This document shows, piece after piece, positions 3,423-32,358 of a stretch of 64,000 nt of DNA. Numbering within the stretch: the first letter of the stretch is position 1; each line of letters starts with the position of its first letter. This stretch comes from Sulfurovum sp. GTDB lineage: Bacteria; Campylobacterota; Campylobacteria; Campylobacterales; Sulfurovaceae. The position numbers and the translations under genes were made by a program. The DNA lies in NCBI GenBank assembly GCA_027049035.1, contig JALTVI010000090.1:62001-126000 (forward strand), written 5' to 3'. The notes under the pieces are model-generated. The model had not been told where the DNA came from. It did not search any database and saw only the letters and a list, made by a program, of their open reading frames with translations.

Positions 3423-4379
3423 TTACTTATTCAGGTCCCACACCATAACCGTCTTGTCGTCACTGGCGGAGTAGAGCCTGTTTTCATCTTTGAAAATGAT
3501 TACATTAAGTGTACTCTTTTGTCCTTTAAGCACAGCCAATTTGGAGTGCGTCAAGGTGTTGAAAACGGAAATACTGTTGTCCTCATCCATCGCAAACGCC
3601 ACCTTTCTGCCACTGGGGCTGAGTGCGGTCGCGTAGATGAGAAAATTTCCCTGAATGTAGCTGCCTTTGCCCGTAGCGACATCATAGAGCGCTCCGCGTC
3701 TGTCCTGCCCTGCGGCAGCGACCATACCATTTTTGAAATCGACCTTGTAGACATTGTCTACATTGAGCCCCTCCAGCGTCTTGAGTATCTTTCCTGTCTG
3801 CACATCCACCACACTGAGCACACCGCTCTCGCAGGAGAATACCGCCTGTGTTCTATCTTCATTGAGCGCGAAATCGGAAAATTTCGACTCGCTCAGCTGC
3901 ACACGGTAGCGCTCTTTTCTGGTTTCCGTATCAAAAAGAGAGACCTCGTCACTCAGATAGCCCAGCAGAATGTGTGTTTTGTCTACAAAACGCGCCTTGA
4001 TCAGCGGCTTTTTGTCTTTGTGCGAAAGTAGCTGCGTCAGTTTGCCGTTTTCGAAAATGTAGAGGTTGGAGTATCCACCGATACCGCTGTCACTGAGCAG
4101 CAGATAGCGCTCCCCGATGCGGTCGGTACTCATCACTCTTGCGGGCATCATGTCACCCATAAAATCCTTGACATCAGGAATGGCAATCTCTTTGAGCTTC
4201 TGCAGCGTGTTGGCATCGTAGACTTCGATGTGTCCTGCATCGGTTGCGATGGTAAGCAGGTTCTCAGAGAGTACCATATCTTTCGCGATACCGTTCAGGA
4301 CGATGGAGGAGGTGGGTGCAAGCTGGGCAGTGGCCCATACCGACACACTCAAAATAAGTAAAAGCAGAAGCCTTCTCAC
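3423..4379 (-). CDS. napL: NapL-like WD40 beta-propeller protein
   Basis: 318 aa with signal peptide and WD repeats (LYSASDDKTVMVWDLNK) in nap operon. Confidence 0.75.
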   Translation of the reverse strand: MRRLLLLLILSVSVWATAQLAPTSSIVLNGIAKDMVLSENLLTIATDAGHIEVYDANTLQKLKEIAIPDVKDFMGDMMPARVMSTDRIGERYLLLSDSGIGGYSNLYIFENGKLTQLLSHKDKKPLIKARFVDKTHILLGYLSDEVSLFDTETRKERYRVQLSESKFSDFALNEDRTQAVFSCESGVLSVVDVQTGKILKTLEGLNVDNVYKVDFKNGMVAAAGQDRRGALYDVATGKGSYIQGNFLIYATALSPSGRKVAFAMDEDNSISVFNTLTHSKLAVLKGQKSTLNVIIFKDENRLYSASDDKTVMVWDLNK

Positions 4380-4714
4380 ACCAGCTCCTCAACCCGCTTC
4401 AGCACCAGTGCCGCAATCGCCTCTTCGTCCAGGTCGGACTTGACACCGTAAAGGTCACCCTCCGAAGCGATGAAGTTCGTGAAAGCTTCATCGGATTCAA
4501 GTGCCTCTGCTAACGTTGCCATCTTCTCCTCACCCAATGCTTTCTGTACCGGCTCGGCAATGTAGATGATGAAGTTGTACTCCTCAAAATCGAACTCGAA
4601 CTCTTCGGAGTCGTAATCTTCATAGTTCTCATCCACATTGAGCAGGTGGCGCAGCTCTACATCTTTGTCTTCAAGCTTTTCGAACAGGTTTGGGTATAGC
4701 TCTTGTAAGTTCAT
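4376..4714 (-). CDS. acidic hypothetical protein in nap operon
   Basis: 112 aa, Asp/Glu-rich, overlaps neighbouring nap genes. Confidence 0.65.
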   Translation of the reverse strand: MNLQELYPNLFEKLEDKDVELRHLLNVDENYEDYDSEEFEFDFEEYNFIIYIAEPVQKALGEEKMATLAEALESDEAFTNFIASEGDLYGVKSDLDEEAIAALVLKRVEELV

Positions 4715-25819: not shown

Positions 25820-25875
25820 TCAGATTTTTCTTGCAAAAAGCTACAATAGCTAAAACTATTTGCAAAAGGGCATCC

Positions 25876-26778
25876 ATGACCAGTCAGGAATTCCTCCCCT
25901 ACCTCAAACTCGTCGGTACCGGTCCCAAGCGTAACCGCGATTTGACTTACGAAGAGATGCAAACCGTCATCCGTGCTATGCTCAAAGAGGAGGTCGTACC
26001 CGAACAGGCAGCGGCCTTTCTGCTTGGCTGGCGTGTCAAGGGAGAGAGCATCGAAGAGTTCAAAGCCGCGCTCGATGTTTTTGACGAATTCATCGTTCAC
26101 GACCCCAAACCGCACACGGTGGAGTTTGGCTACCCCTACGACGGCAAGATCAACAACCCCTACCTGCTTTCACTCATGGCACAGGCACTTGAACCCTTTG
26201 GTGTGGAGCTCTCACTCCACGGCGGTCTGCTGCAGCCCGCCAAAGGCGGCGTCACCCTCAAAGAGGTGTGCGATGCAGCACCTCTACCCAAAAACGTACA
26301 CTTCTATGACCGCAAAACCTATTTCCCAGAGCTCTACCGCTTCAGCGAACTTCGTGCAAGGCTGGGACTGCGAAGTTCTATCAACACCATCGAAAAGCTG
26401 CTTGGCATCACTAAAAGCGAAACGGCTGTCATTGGTGCCTTTCACAAACCTTTTATCCAAAAATACATTGCACTATACAAAGAACGCTACAAAAAGCTCA
26501 TTATCATCAAAGGCAACGAGGGAAGCCCGGAGATATTTGGCAAGTGTGCCATTACCCTTGTAGAAAACGATGAAATAAACGAATTCAAAGTCGACCCCAA
26601 AGATTACGGCATCGAATATGCCAAGTCGTTCAAGCTAATTACGCTGGAAGATTCTCTAAACCAGACGCTACACCCAAGTGAAAGTTTTATGAAACTGGCA
26701 CAGTTCAATGCTGCTGTGCTGCTCTTTTTACTGGGAAAAGTGCCATCAATTGAAGAAGAAATGAACAAACACTTGTAA
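25876..26778 (+). CDS. TrpD2-like (anthranilate phosphoribosyltransferase-related) glycosyltransferase-family protein
   Basis: MTSQEFLPYLKLVGTGPKRNRDLTYEEMQTVIRAML; GGLLQPAKGGVTLKEV. Confidence 0.7.
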   Translation: MTSQEFLPYLKLVGTGPKRNRDLTYEEMQTVIRAMLKEEVVPEQAAAFLLGWRVKGESIEEFKAALDVFDEFIVHDPKPHTVEFGYPYDGKINNPYLLSLMAQALEPFGVELSLHGGLLQPAKGGVTLKEVCDAAPLPKNVHFYDRKTYFPELYRFSELRARLGLRSSINTIEKLLGITKSETAVIGAFHKPFIQKYIALYKERYKKLIIIKGNEGSPEIFGKCAITLVENDEINEFKVDPKDYGIEYAKSFKLITLEDSLNQTLHPSESFMKLAQFNAAVLLFLLGKVPSIEEEMNKHL

Positions 26779-26836
26779 AATCACTGTATTTATGCTACAA
26801 TTTGGTAAATAAATTCACCTTATAAAGGATACAGAC

Positions 26837-27412
26837 ATGAAAAAACTTGTAAAAAAAGGGTTTCTTTCAGTTGCAACGCTCACTGCTCTGAGTACACAAA
26901 TGTTTGCAGCAAGCGGACAGACATCAGTGAGCTTCAACTTCCCCAATATCGTCATTCTTCACTACGTAAGTGACGTAAAGTTCGATGTACCTGCAACCGT
27001 CTTTGGACCTAATTCCGTTGCAGACACAACCCAGAAAGTATTGAACGGTTTCACTGCTCCAAACCTCAATGGAGATGCGGCTGTATCTGTAACCCTTTCT
27101 ACTGCACTGAATGGATACACAGGTACAATCAACAATGCATGGGCGGTACGTGCCATCACAACAAATAATGTACAAGTTCAGATCACGCTCGATACTGCAA
27201 ACGCTACAAACGGAACCAGTACAGTAACGCTTTCAAACGCAACAGTAGATGATGGTACAAACTCTGGTGCTACCATTCAATTTGCACCTCCGGGGCTCTC
27301 TGCAGCCAATGCCCACTATGGAAACGTCAATTTTAATATCGACTTTTCAGGCGTAACTACAAACGGCTTGCACCAGGGAGCACAGTACACTGTAACTGCA
27401 ACCGCTCTGTAG
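26837..27412 (+). CDS. exported fimbrial-subunit-like protein 1
   Basis: signal peptide, Thr/Asn/Val-rich beta sequence, C-terminus GAQYTVTATAL, heads a chaperone/usher-like gene set. Confidence 0.55.
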   Translation: MKKLVKKGFLSVATLTALSTQMFAASGQTSVSFNFPNIVILHYVSDVKFDVPATVFGPNSVADTTQKVLNGFTAPNLNGDAAVSVTLSTALNGYTGTINNAWAVRAITTNNVQVQITLDTANATNGTSTVTLSNATVDDGTNSGATIQFAPPGLSAANAHYGNVNFNIDFSGVTTNGLHQGAQYTVTATAL

Positions 27413-27430
27413 CAACAGTAAGGAAGAGGA

Positions 27431-27961
27431 ATGAAGCTTCTGCCTCTTCTTTGCATATTATGTCTCTCCCCTTTCACTCTCTATGGTTTTCAAGACTGTA
27501 AACTAAGGATATTGATCGATCCGGTCTCCAAATCTATCCGTGCCAACAAGATCACATCAAATCAGGGAGACGACATTGCCAAAAACAGTTTTACCATTAA
27601 CGGTATCACCGTCAACAACAATACACTTACACTCGATACAGTAACCGATTTAAGTCTTAACCTTGATCTTTCACCCAGTAAAGTGATACGAAGAGTATGG
27701 CGATGTGACTTTAAAAATAAGGTCAACAGAAACAATATTGTTGTAAAGTATACTCTAATCGCCTCCAACGGACAAAACGGCGGTATCAGCAGTGGCAATG
27801 CCTTCATTCCCACCGTAGTAAGCACAAAGAGACTACGATTTAGAAACAGAAGGAAAAGAGTACTCGGTGACATTAAATTCGTCTTTGACCTCTCCCATGC
27901 ACAGGCAACAGCCTCGGGAAACTATGGCGGTGTTTTAACCATTGAGGTATATGAAAATTAG
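27431..27961 (+). CDS. exported fimbrial-subunit-like protein 2
   Basis: signal peptide, C-terminal NYGGVLTIEVYEN typical of pilin-like beta strand. Confidence 0.55.
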   Translation: MKLLPLLCILCLSPFTLYGFQDCKLRILIDPVSKSIRANKITSNQGDDIAKNSFTINGITVNNNTLTLDTVTDLSLNLDLSPSKVIRRVWRCDFKNKVNRNNIVVKYTLIASNGQNGGISSGNAFIPTVVSTKRLRFRNRRKRVLGDIKFVFDLSHAQATASGNYGGVLTIEVYEN

Positions 27962-27971
27962 GAATGTTACA

Positions 27972-28811
27972 ATGAATATAAAATCTATTATAAATACTAT
28001 GTTATATATACTCTTTTTGCAGGCTTCTCTTAATGCCAAAACAGTCACACCTCCACCACAGGTTGCCGTCTCTCCCAGCCGTTTCGAGATCACCTACGAT
28101 AAAAAAATGAAAACCTATGCGCTTACGCTTATCAACTATTCAGACCACAAAATAAAAGCACGTATCTCACTTTCGAACTGGACACTTGAAGGAGACAAGA
28201 TAAAAGAGCTGCCTCCCACACCCCAATCTCTTGACCAGTGGATGCTTATTACCCCTCTCAATGTCCGTGTAGCACCTCATAGTACCCAAACGGTCCGTTT
28301 TGCCATCAGACCAAGAACCAAACCTGCTCCCGGTGAGCACCGTGCCATGATCTGGATAGATCAGGTGCAGGATTCACAGTTTGAAAATGAAGGCATTCAG
28401 GCAAAGTTCAAGTTTGGTGTCGCTGTCTATCTGTATGTACCTCCAATATCACCAAAAGGAAAACTGCAAAAGCTCTCAGCTGTCAGCAAGGCAAAAACCA
28501 TAGAAGTAACACTTAAATTTTCCAACAGCGGCAATGTGCATGACAGATTCAAAGGAACACTCTCTTTATGGAAAGCGAACAGCCCACTTTCTGAAGAAGA
28601 AAGAAATGCTATCTTAAGCCAGAACATTAAAAATACCTATCTCATCTCCAAAGAGGCCGTACCTACAAAACCTCTACTGCCCAAAATTCAGCAAACAATC
28701 AAAGTTTTTCTAAAGAAACCAAAGAGCAAAGGACCTTATATCCTCTACCTTCATGGTGTATTTAAAGACGAAAAAGAATTTACCAAAAAACAGATTGTCA
28801 TTGTAAAATAA
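27972..28811 (+). CDS. PapD-like periplasmic pilus chaperone
   Basis: Start at 27972; VAVSPSRFEITYDKK..., RVAPHSTQTVRFAIRPRTKPAPGEHRAMIWID; Ig-like two-domain chaperone pattern. Confidence 0.75.
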   Translation: MNIKSIINTMLYILFLQASLNAKTVTPPPQVAVSPSRFEITYDKKMKTYALTLINYSDHKIKARISLSNWTLEGDKIKELPPTPQSLDQWMLITPLNVRVAPHSTQTVRFAIRPRTKPAPGEHRAMIWIDQVQDSQFENEGIQAKFKFGVAVYLYVPPISPKGKLQKLSAVSKAKTIEVTLKFSNSGNVHDRFKGTLSLWKANSPLSEEERNAILSQNIKNTYLISKEAVPTKPLLPKIQQTIKVFLKKPKSKGPYILYLHGVFKDEKEFTKKQIVIVK

Positions 28812-31252
28812 TGCAACATGCTCTGCAGCACCTCATCCGACTGCTATGTATCACTTTTTGTATCTATACTGTTTCTCTGTCAGCCACCGAACCCCAGTTT
28901 GCAGCGCTTATCGTTGACGGAGAAGAAGTGGGTGTCGTTTTTTTTGAGCAAAAAGAAAATGAGATATTTCTTGAAAAAGATGTGCTGTCTGACATTCCGC
29001 AAATCACCGTCAGCGAAGCCAACAACACTATCACAACGCCCATTGGTACAGTATCTTATTCTTCTTTAGTTAAAAACGATACCGGATTTAGCTTGACACA
29101 ACTTGACAAAGTACTCAAAATCCAAAGCAAATACTCGGAAAAAGATATCGCACTTTATCTTGCAACTCCATGGAGACACTTGAGACATGGAGGTACTCAC
29201 CCCAAAAAAAGAGCAGATATCCTTCCAGAATCAAGTATTTTTAACGGTTTTCGTCTGGACAGTACCGTTGCATATCAAAATGAAGAACTGCTTCATCGAA
29301 CAGAGATGCAGCTCTCCGGCTATATGATGGATGGTATCACCCGTATCTCTGCACTAAAGGCACAAGACGATCATCCATATATCAATGAACTTATGTGGCT
29401 AAAAAAAGAAGACAGATACTCGGTACTGTTTGGACTCCAAAATACACAGCCTCATCTTCTGCTTCCCTATGAGGAGATGAGCGGTATTCAGGCAGAGTGG
29501 ACCAACTTTGATATGCCTGACATTTCTGACCGCATAGAGCCCACACTGAGGCCATCACTGGGACCTGACAACAGAATCATCACGGGGGAAGGTACTCCGG
29601 GTGGATCTGTCGTATTGAGAATAAATGACAAAGCTGTCTTGGCTGTACGTATCCGACTTGACGGTACCTATCGAATAGATATCAGTCAACAGAATCTTTC
29701 AGGAGCATCACTTGTCGAACTCTGGATTTACGAACGTGATCCCTTTGGGGCACCCACCAAAAAGATAAATTTGAGTTATCTTAGAGAAGAACAACTCTTG
29801 GAAAAAGGACAGTTCGCTGTACTTGCCGGTGGTGGGGAAAACGGGAATATATTCAACCAGAACATACCTGATACAGGTTCAAATGCAGTAGGAAATATAT
29901 ATGCACGCTACGGTGTGACGAATTCCCTTACGGTAGAAGGTGGTCTTATGAAAGATGCCAAGCAGCGCAACTATATGTTGCTTGCAGCCACTGTATCACT
30001 GGGGGAACATGTCACAGCACATGCGGCTATTGGTATGCAAAGCGATCATATAGCCTCTTATATGACACTCAATGGTCATTGGGACAATGACTACCTTACC
30101 GCAAGATGGAGAGAAGAGCCACAAAACTATAAAGACACAGACTACAATACGCAGGATGGATACATTGACTATGTGAAACAAATAAGCGATTCTCTAAGCC
30201 TGGGGGTCAATGGCAGATACTACCAAGGAAACGATAAAAATGTTACCTTTTTGTTGCCAACTGTACGATACAAGCCTTTTGCATCGCTTTCTATGACATT
30301 GATCCCCAACTATGACGGATATTACCGTTTTGATGCGCTCTATACCCCGAATGAAGATTTACGCATCAATTATACATTTGAAGAGGACGAACATCGACTT
30401 TCAATTGTGGATTATATTACAGATGAATGGAGCCTCTATTTTGACGGAGCTACCAATATAGATGATAAATACCGTTATGAAGCAGGTGTCACATGGCGTG
30501 ACGAGGATAGAAACGATCTTTATTTTGAAGCTGGTGTCATTTATAGTGAGGGAGATGTCGGTTTTAAAGCCAATTTAAGACATAACCTACTGCCAGGTGT
30601 ATATGCCAAATATGAAGCACGCAATGAACCTTTTCTTAAAAATGGTAGAGAATCGTACTATGGTGTCAACCTTATTGTCGACTTCGCTTTCATTCAGGGA
30701 AAATTCCATCCCACAGATGCACCTGAAATAGAACGGAACTTGAGAGGGAGTATTGTCGGAAATGTCTATGTAGAGGGGACAAAGACACCTGTTGACGCAG
30801 AAGATATCCAGATACTGGTTAACAACTCCCCAAGAAAAGCCGGGGAATCTTCCGGACGCTTTTTCATAGGCAACCTGAAACAGGGTATCTATACGGTCAA
30901 GCTTGATCCGTCATCCTTGCCGATGGAATACACACCGGTAAAAAACAGCTACAATGTCAAGGTCGCAGATGGTGCAGTGAGCACGGTCAACTTTTATGTC
31001 AACACCTTTTATGGCATTGCGGGTAAACTGCATGGACACAAGTCCAAAGAACCTGTAGAGATCGTACTTACTTCAAAAGCGGACGGCAAGGAGTACACCT
31101 CCTACACCGACCAGTTTGACTACTACCGTTTCGATGAGATTCCCCCCGGCAAATACATACTCTCTGCTTCAGATGATAGCATCAGGGTTTCACCCATAGA
31201 AATTGTCGTAAAAGATGACTTCCTTTTCGATCAGGATCTCTATGCCCGCTAA
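28811..31252 (+). CDS. outer-membrane usher-like protein with C-terminal carboxypeptidase-regulatory-like domains
   Basis: GPDNRIITGEGTPGGSVVLRINDKAVLAVRIRLDGTYRID...VELWIYERDPFGAPTKKINLSYLREEQLLEKGQFAVLAGGG resembles usher plug/strand region; beta-barrel-like sequence. Confidence 0.7.
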   Translation: MQHALQHLIRLLCITFCIYTVSLSATEPQFAALIVDGEEVGVVFFEQKENEIFLEKDVLSDIPQITVSEANNTITTPIGTVSYSSLVKNDTGFSLTQLDKVLKIQSKYSEKDIALYLATPWRHLRHGGTHPKKRADILPESSIFNGFRLDSTVAYQNEELLHRTEMQLSGYMMDGITRISALKAQDDHPYINELMWLKKEDRYSVLFGLQNTQPHLLLPYEEMSGIQAEWTNFDMPDISDRIEPTLRPSLGPDNRIITGEGTPGGSVVLRINDKAVLAVRIRLDGTYRIDISQQNLSGASLVELWIYERDPFGAPTKKINLSYLREEQLLEKGQFAVLAGGGENGNIFNQNIPDTGSNAVGNIYARYGVTNSLTVEGGLMKDAKQRNYMLLAATVSLGEHVTAHAAIGMQSDHIASYMTLNGHWDNDYLTARWREEPQNYKDTDYNTQDGYIDYVKQISDSLSLGVNGRYYQGNDKNVTFLLPTVRYKPFASLSMTLIPNYDGYYRFDALYTPNEDLRINYTFEEDEHRLSIVDYITDEWSLYFDGATNIDDKYRYEAGVTWRDEDRNDLYFEAGVIYSEGDVGFKANLRHNLLPGVYAKYEARNEPFLKNGRESYYGVNLIVDFAFIQGKFHPTDAPEIERNLRGSIVGNVYVEGTKTPVDAEDIQILVNNSPRKAGESSGRFFIGNLKQGIYTVKLDPSSLPMEYTPVKNSYNVKVADGAVSTVNFYVNTFYGIAGKLHGHKSKEPVEIVLTSKADGKEYTSYTDQFDYYRFDEIPPGKYILSASDDSIRVSPIEIVVKDDFLFDQDLYAR

Positions 31253-31260
31253 TGCGGACT

Positions 31261-32358
31261 CTATTTCAGCTTTCCGCTGACATCTTCAAACTTCTGCTTC
31301 GTAAGCGTATGAAGCTTCACGATCTTCTTGGCATTGAAGTCAAACTTTTTCATATCGAGCATTTTGATGTTCTGATCGTCGTATGTCTTGTAGTAATAAC
31401 GGAGATTCTTCGTATCACGCACAACTGTCAGCATTGTATAGTCAGAGAAGCTCTTGCCCTCTTCAATGGTTCTTGCCGCACCGACAGGGATATCGAAACT
31501 GTTGAGAATGTGAAAGACCTGCATAACACCCTGTTCTGCCTTTGCATCAGGGATCGTACTTCCGGCAAACGCTGCCGCTCTTACAAATCTTGACGGTGGG
31601 GTGAAGTCACCTGGAAGACCCAGCATACCTGCTCCCTGTCCCAGTGGCTTAAGCTCCACACCAAACACCTTTTTGGGGTCAGGCGTATTGGCACCCAGTG
31701 TCACATAGTTGCGCAGGTTGGTCATGTGCCAGTCGAATGTCGGTGAGTTGGTGATAACACCGATAGGGTTGTCATAGACCTTCAGCTTGCCGTCGATCGG
31801 CTCGAAAACGATGCTCTTACCTGTCTTGTCGTAAACGATGAAGTGGAAAGGCTGTACCTGCGGAGGGAAGCCCGGAGTGAGTACAGGTGAAATTGCCACT
31901 TCATTGTTCTCAAGCGCTTTTTTGACCTCATCGACCGATTCAAACATAGAAAGTATCCACTGTACAATGTCGGTTGAAGACATGGAGATGGACTAGTTCT
32001 CTTTGGTCGTAACGGAGTATTTCGCATACCCCGGGAAGTAGAAGTTGGCACATACCAGCCCCTTCTCGTTCATACCGTCAACGATGACATCGTAGTCGGC
32101 GATGATCATTCCCGCAGAAGCGTACTTCGCCGTCCACGTTTTCCCCGGTCCGAGTGTCGTCATACCGGTAAACTTGTACCCTCTTGGCACTACTGCGATA
32201 CTGGTGTCGATAAGTACACCGAACTCAACGGTTCTTCCGTTGATCGTAGCACCATCTTTTGTCTTGATCTGTACACCTGTACACGCGTCGGCTGTTGTGA
32301 AGCCAAGTGTCATTATCAACGCTGCAACCGCAGCGATCGTTCGTTTTTTCAAATTCAT
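31261..32358 (-). pseudogene. linear amide C-N hydrolase (choloylglycine hydrolase/penicillin V acylase family) interrupted by in-frame TAG
   Basis: ORFs 32358-31993 and 31983-31261 share a frame separated by TAG TCC ATC TCC; N-terminal nucleophile Cys after signal (ADACTGVQIKTKDG). Confidence 0.8.

Follow-up and report, generated by a model that had tools for sequence, protein, structure and literature searches.

A divergent chaperone-usher operon of a distinct clade, probably acquired horizontally, in a Sulfurovum genome

The 64,000-nucleotide stretch of a Sulfurovum genome analyzed here (contig JALTVI010000090.1, positions 62,001 to 126,000; called the window below) contains four tightly packed, uninterrupted + strand open reading frames (ORFs) at 26837-31252. 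Very probably they form a chaperone-usher system that belongs to a distinct clade and was acquired horizontally; it would polymerize a small pilin-like protein, pilin 1, by donor-strand exchange. The chaperone and the usher are homologous to those of known pilus systems, the operon is conserved, its clade is a separate one, and close relatives of the host lack it. Donor-strand exchange, the fiber, the roles of the subunits and a purpose in adhesion or biofilm formation are what the sequences suggest. No earlier description of this clade was found.

The coordinates and close packing of the four genes given in the original prediction agree with the ORF check:

26837-27412, + strand: pilin-like subunit 1 (pilin 1), 191 residues, probable polymerizing subunit
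27431-27961, + strand: pilin-like subunit 2 (pilin 2), 176 residues, candidate tip or capping subunit
27972-28811, + strand: PapD-like periplasmic chaperone, 279 residues from ATG, with an in-frame TTG at 27942
28811-31252, + strand: usher-type outer-membrane barrel, 813 residues

Spacers of 18 bp and 10 bp are followed by a 1-bp overlap of the chaperone stop and the usher start (TAATG), and each of the four proteins has a signal-peptide-like N-terminus as judged by eye. The 11 promoters predicted are about what chance would give (9.8 expected), and the 7 terminators predicted, against an expectation of 3.9, yielded no interpretable signal.

Conserved gene order and homology of the chaperone and usher

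BLAST searches with the window chaperone in other groups identified three window-type neighborhoods, L126, L127 and L128, belonging to two Gammaproteobacteria and one genome from the phylum of the Desulfuromonadaceae. Chaperone identity was 39% to genome G835 (E 5e-42), 36% to G460 (E 9e-41; the search of its family covered a single genome) and 31% to G635. L126 encodes pilin 1, pilin 2, chaperone and usher in the same order as the window; in L127 two genes resembling pilin 1, and in L128 a single pilin gene, precede the chaperone and usher. The grouping of the four genes is not due to chance, because gene content and order are conserved in L126. Using phmmer, usher relatives were found in L126 (E 8e-67), L127 and L128, and pilin 1 relatives at the same place in all three loci, with two copies in L127 (E 1e-16 to 3e-12).

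A second set of related loci was reached through plasmids, where tblastn with the window chaperone led to a Polaromonas locus encoding DUF4402 protein(s), a molecular chaperone and a carboxypeptidase-like regulatory domain protein. Its barrel led to similar loci in Sphingopyxis, Novosphingobium and Pseudoalteromonas, and a profile scan of GTDB confirmed 141 such DUF4402-linked loci; 80 were kept, in which 72 chaperone ORFs were detected. This usher group is common and apparently unstudied. In the literature searched, with most subscription journals outside it, no paper mentioning DUF4402 was found, which is not proof of absence, and none containing both chaperone-usher and carboxypeptidase regulatory-like.

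The chaperones of the window, L126 and L127 group together in a supported clade (97/92), which their tree separates from the archaic (100/98) and DUF4402-linked (99/97) chaperones; the placement of L128 is unstable. The four window-type ushers likewise fall into a single clade, with a Shimodaira-Hasegawa-like approximate likelihood ratio test value of 100, in a quick-method, unrooted tree with long branches. The original prediction had considered a new clade possible, and the separate clade of the ushers agrees with it. Ten loci with weaker chaperone matches and other barrel types (L129-L138) were entered in the chaperone tree only. One of these, L134 (2249-8283), has pilin-like genes and a chaperone beside a 992-residue barrel with CarboxypepD/SdrD-like repeats and an OmpA-like C-terminus, as read by eye; it is possibly another kind of chaperone-dependent surface system.

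A window-type chaperone profile matched archaic chaperones at E 1.6e-16 and DUF4402-linked chaperones at E 3.6e-17. Pro95 of the window chaperone is invariant in both chaperone alignments; a single proline is described as the superfamily's only invariant residue (PMC4654587). Judged by its sequence, the protein is a PapD-like two-domain chaperone with the super-conserved proline. Arg124, in the motif GEHR, is a candidate for a carboxylate anchor of the CsuC Arg89 type in strand F of domain 1; the archaic alignment is shifted there and L128 is one position off. Among the Pfam profiles that the original prediction had proposed for a search, PapD_N matched the chaperone just under the cut-off (E=3e-4), and no match was obtained for the usher or spore coat U (SCPU) pilin profiles. 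A mixed chaperone profile (A1) matched a WxL-interacting protein (PDB 9i25/9i1y), a Gram-positive surface protein of Enterococcus faecium, at E 2.5e-5, and the window-type profile (A6) did not; the A1 match may stem from its Deinococcus row. The chaperone of L128 (5025-5516) has 163 residues and stops where domain 1 ends, and its usher gene comes directly after it. Such a one-domain chaperone would be unusual.

Two regions of the usher are referred to below, with the predicted local distance difference test score (pLDDT) of their model:

29573-29800, + strand: usher plug region, residues about 255-330, aligning with the plug of archaic and DUF4402-linked ushers, mostly pLDDT 58-83
30743-31249, + strand: two C-terminal beta domains of the usher, the last one CarboxypepD_reg-like, residues about 645-813, pLDDT 62-90

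A profile was made of four window-type ushers, namely the window protein and its relatives from L126, L127 and L128. Against DUF4402-linked ushers it aligned over 738 columns with E 6.5e-24 (global 5e-38); against archaic ushers, the alignment spanned 508 columns with E 7.2e-12. In the same kind of comparison, DUF4402-linked and archaic ushers matched each other at E 4e-14 locally and 1.3e-22 globally. The single window usher also matched the DUF4402-linked set significantly (E 1.4e-5, residues 255-791). An AlphaFold2 model was built from DUF4402-linked rows only, and it is better in the plug, in some of the barrel and in the two C-terminal domains. The top eleven Foldseek matches of this model in the PDB are all FimD or PapC (E down to 7.6e-14); global template modeling (TM) scores are low, about 0.2, and the matches support the family rather than the details. 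By profiles and model, the window barrel is predicted to be an usher, an outer-membrane barrel with a plug and C-terminal beta domains. The original prediction of an usher-like barrel with a plug, and of a divergent chaperone-usher-type locus with a PapD-like chaperone, is borne out by these profile and fold matches.

CarboxypepD_reg matched residues 749-790 of the window usher at E=1e-5, under the Pfam cut-off, and matched the L126-L128 ushers above it, with three stretches in L128. The NCBIfam search added nothing for the four window proteins. The CarboxypepD_reg-like C-terminus had been regarded as peculiar to this locus; instead, it is found in widespread ushers beside DUF4402 pilins. This end of the protein aligns with the C-terminal region of ordinary ushers. 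A novel domain swap at the C-terminus was considered and rejected, the CarboxypepD_reg-like end being common to the whole DUF4402-linked group.

Pilin-like subunits and a proposed assembly route

The pilins are the weakest link of the proposed system. The pilin 1 family matched DUF4402 pilins marginally, with a global hhalign E of 6e-6 and a local one of 3e-4 at 40%. By profile, pilin 2 weakly resembles pilin 1 (E 1.2e-4 local, 54.7%), and it shares its position and C-terminal pattern with the L126 gene at 4116-4688 (GNYGGVLTIEVYEN / GRYSGTLIIEFGRI). A candidate donor strand can be proposed in pilin 1:

26909-26950, + strand: proposed N-terminal donor-strand extension of mature pilin 1 (ASGQTSVSFNFPNI), alternating hydrophobics after the predicted cleavage MFA/ASG

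The mature N-terminus of pilin 1 has about 24 residues before a motif comparable to LxFG, and the length of this extension resembles that of DUF4402 pilins located far from the chaperone. In DUF4402-linked operons, the far pilin has about 14 more residues before LxFG than the chaperone-adjacent pilin (medians 32 and 18 in 42 loci; these are crude values from rough signal-peptide cutting). Such a difference is consistent with shaft subunits that carry an N-terminal donor strand and a tip subunit that lacks one. Polymerization of CsuA/B is reported to have stopped when its first 12 residues were replaced (PMC4654587). By analogy, pilin 1 may be the polymerizing subunit and pilin 2 the tip. A minimal fiber of two subunits is compatible with the sequence data, and L126 carries the same two subunits.

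In the assembly route proposed, pilin subunits in the periplasm would be bound by the chaperone and would borrow a strand from it to complete their immunoglobulin-like fold, and the usher would bring the chaperone-pilin complexes to the outer membrane. There, the chaperone strand would give way to the N-terminal extension of an incoming pilin 1 subunit, the plug would move aside, and the growing fiber would exit through the barrel. The fiber would be built of repeated pilin 1 subunits, with pilin 2 as a tip or cap, and it may serve adhesion or biofilm formation.

Probable acquisition of the operon and alternative explanations

With the window usher as query, no match was found among the genomes of 59 relatives or 396 other genomes of the phylum, and scans with this single protein found nothing in GTDB contigs, viral contigs or plasmids. 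A chaperone profile, run on 298 genomes of the phylum, identified the window and three other loci only. Two of the three (L003 and L004) carry PF00577 ushers, and the third (L021) resembles an ordinary archaic locus, judged from its ORFs alone. Archaic chaperone-usher loci are present in this phylum but scarce, and the window type is scarcer. The original prediction assigned the phylum as Campylobacterota, and the nap gene order of the window would be in line with this. Its statement that chaperone-usher pili are well described mainly outside the phylum has to be amended, as ordinary archaic loci are present there too.

The module that appears to have been gained is delimited as follows:

26779-31260, no strand assigned: stretch missing in same-genus relatives (acquired module), from the spacing of flanking genes and the guanine-plus-cytosine (G+C) content

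In four genomes of the same genus (G002, G926, G930 and G013), the genes corresponding to 25831-26778 and 31261-32358 have only about 80-270 bp between them, and this gap holds no operon. The G+C content is 0.40-0.44 within the operon stretch and mostly 0.46-0.55 outside. Inspection of the operon edges, by eye only, revealed neither an integrase nor a direct repeat. The most parsimonious interpretation is a gain in the window lineage; the whole set was seemingly acquired, probably from a donor in another bacterial phylum. The hydrolase-like gene 3' of the operon (31261-32358, - strand) has an in-frame stop at codon 122, and the copy in the relative L166 is uninterrupted. Either a genuine mutation or an error in the assembly could explain the stop.

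Several observations weigh against an acquired, fiber-forming chaperone-usher system. The window usher stays below the reach of PF00577, with no match at E<=1, and the L126-L128 ushers have none either. Its match to archaic ushers is not significant as a single sequence, and the link emerges only with the profile of four members. Only part of the usher chain is covered by the model (mean pLDDT 55.9, predicted TM score 0.35). Neither pilin has a Pfam or NCBIfam match, and the pilin 1 model, folded with DUF4402 rows, is of low confidence (pLDDT 55), with no PDB match below E 0.001; its poor quality is probably due to misaligned N-termini. The best PDB matches of this model, none of them significant, include FimH/FocH, SafA and PapG pilin domains. 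No adhesin or known fiber occurs in the window-type clade.

The lack of a PF00577 match, the CarboxypepD_reg-like nature of the best Pfam matches, and PDB sequence matches that lie only in that domain would all suit a barrel that is another CarboxypepD_reg outer-membrane protein, such as a porin or receptor, with the chaperone serving something else. This is very improbable, however, because the 738- and 508-column profile matches extend beyond the C-terminal domains across the barrel and plug, FimD and PapC occupy the top eleven structural ranks, and the barrel is regularly paired with a PapD-like chaperone (72 chaperone ORFs in related loci). Somewhat less improbable, though still unlikely, is a chaperone-usher-like export of two small proteins as surface monomers or a loose coat, with no ordered fiber. 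The presence of only two small subunits, the lack of a recognizable adhesin and the unconfirmed pilin fold agree with such a coat; against it stand the resemblance of the usher to other ushers over its whole length, plug included, and the alternating N-terminal stretch of pilin 1, which matches DUF4402 pilins in length; in the sister group, such a stretch is present in some pilins and absent from others. A decayed or silent foreign operon would account for acquired, low-G+C genes that relatives lack and that lie beside a gene with an in-frame stop, but hardly for four intact frames whose proteins all retain their family motifs, and we give it very little credit. An acquired chaperone-usher system polymerizing pilin 1 is preferred to all three.

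Significance and relation to known systems

The window type and the DUF4402-linked type may, on an even balance of judgment, be undescribed usher clades beyond PF00577, so that annotations such as hypothetical or carboxypeptidase-like would cover a sizeable share of the diversity of chaperone-usher systems; the window type would then be a minimal two-subunit fiber machine that moves between phyla and that, in L128, works with a one-domain chaperone. Surveys relying on the Usher model miss both types of loci. For DUF4402, a concrete and testable function is offered, namely that of a pilin of a chaperone-usher system, and the small four-gene operon is suited to reconstruction in a laboratory strain. 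A surface-fiber operon has apparently been gained in a lineage where such systems are scarce.

Other features recur around the DUF4402-linked operons. In marine Gammaproteobacteria, SPOR domains are found in the barrel of L009 and in neighbors of L015, and SPOR-like domains were read by eye in L084 and L086. The operons of L010, L012, L013 and L014 are on plasmids, the plasmids of L012-L014 being conjugative by typing, and IS6 transposases lie near the operons in L010 and L012.

Classical pili (FimD/FimC, PapC/PapD) share the overall usher fold with the window by Foldseek, but the window lacks an adhesin and a PapC_C domain, and its proteins have no detectable sequence match to solved chaperones or ushers. 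Searches of the PDB by sequence returned neither ushers nor pilins, and those with the window usher matched only its CarboxypepD_reg-like domain. Archaic pili, which have spore coat U pilins (Csu, CupE), are similar to the window in their PapD-like chaperone, their usher with a plug, and single-domain pilins expected to bear an N-terminal donor strand. The archaic loci of the same phylum have PF00577 ushers (L003, L004) and an SCPU pilin (L003), whereas by Pfam the window has neither a PF00577 usher nor an SCPU pilin (PF05229), and it stands apart from archaic systems in both trees.

The closest resemblance is to the DUF4402/CarboxypepD_reg-usher operons of Polaromonas, Massilia, Sphingopyxis, Novosphingobium, Vibrio, Shewanella, Pseudoalteromonas and others. 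They have the same order of pilin(s), chaperone and usher, and their ushers likewise have no PF00577 match, end in CarboxypepD_reg-like domains, and align with the window type from end to end by profile. The window pilins, however, miss the DUF4402 model, usher identity is about 14-19%, and the chaperones (window, L126, L127) and ushers fall in separate clades. Because of this separate clade, the sequences place the window locus as a relative, not a member, of the DUF4402-linked group.

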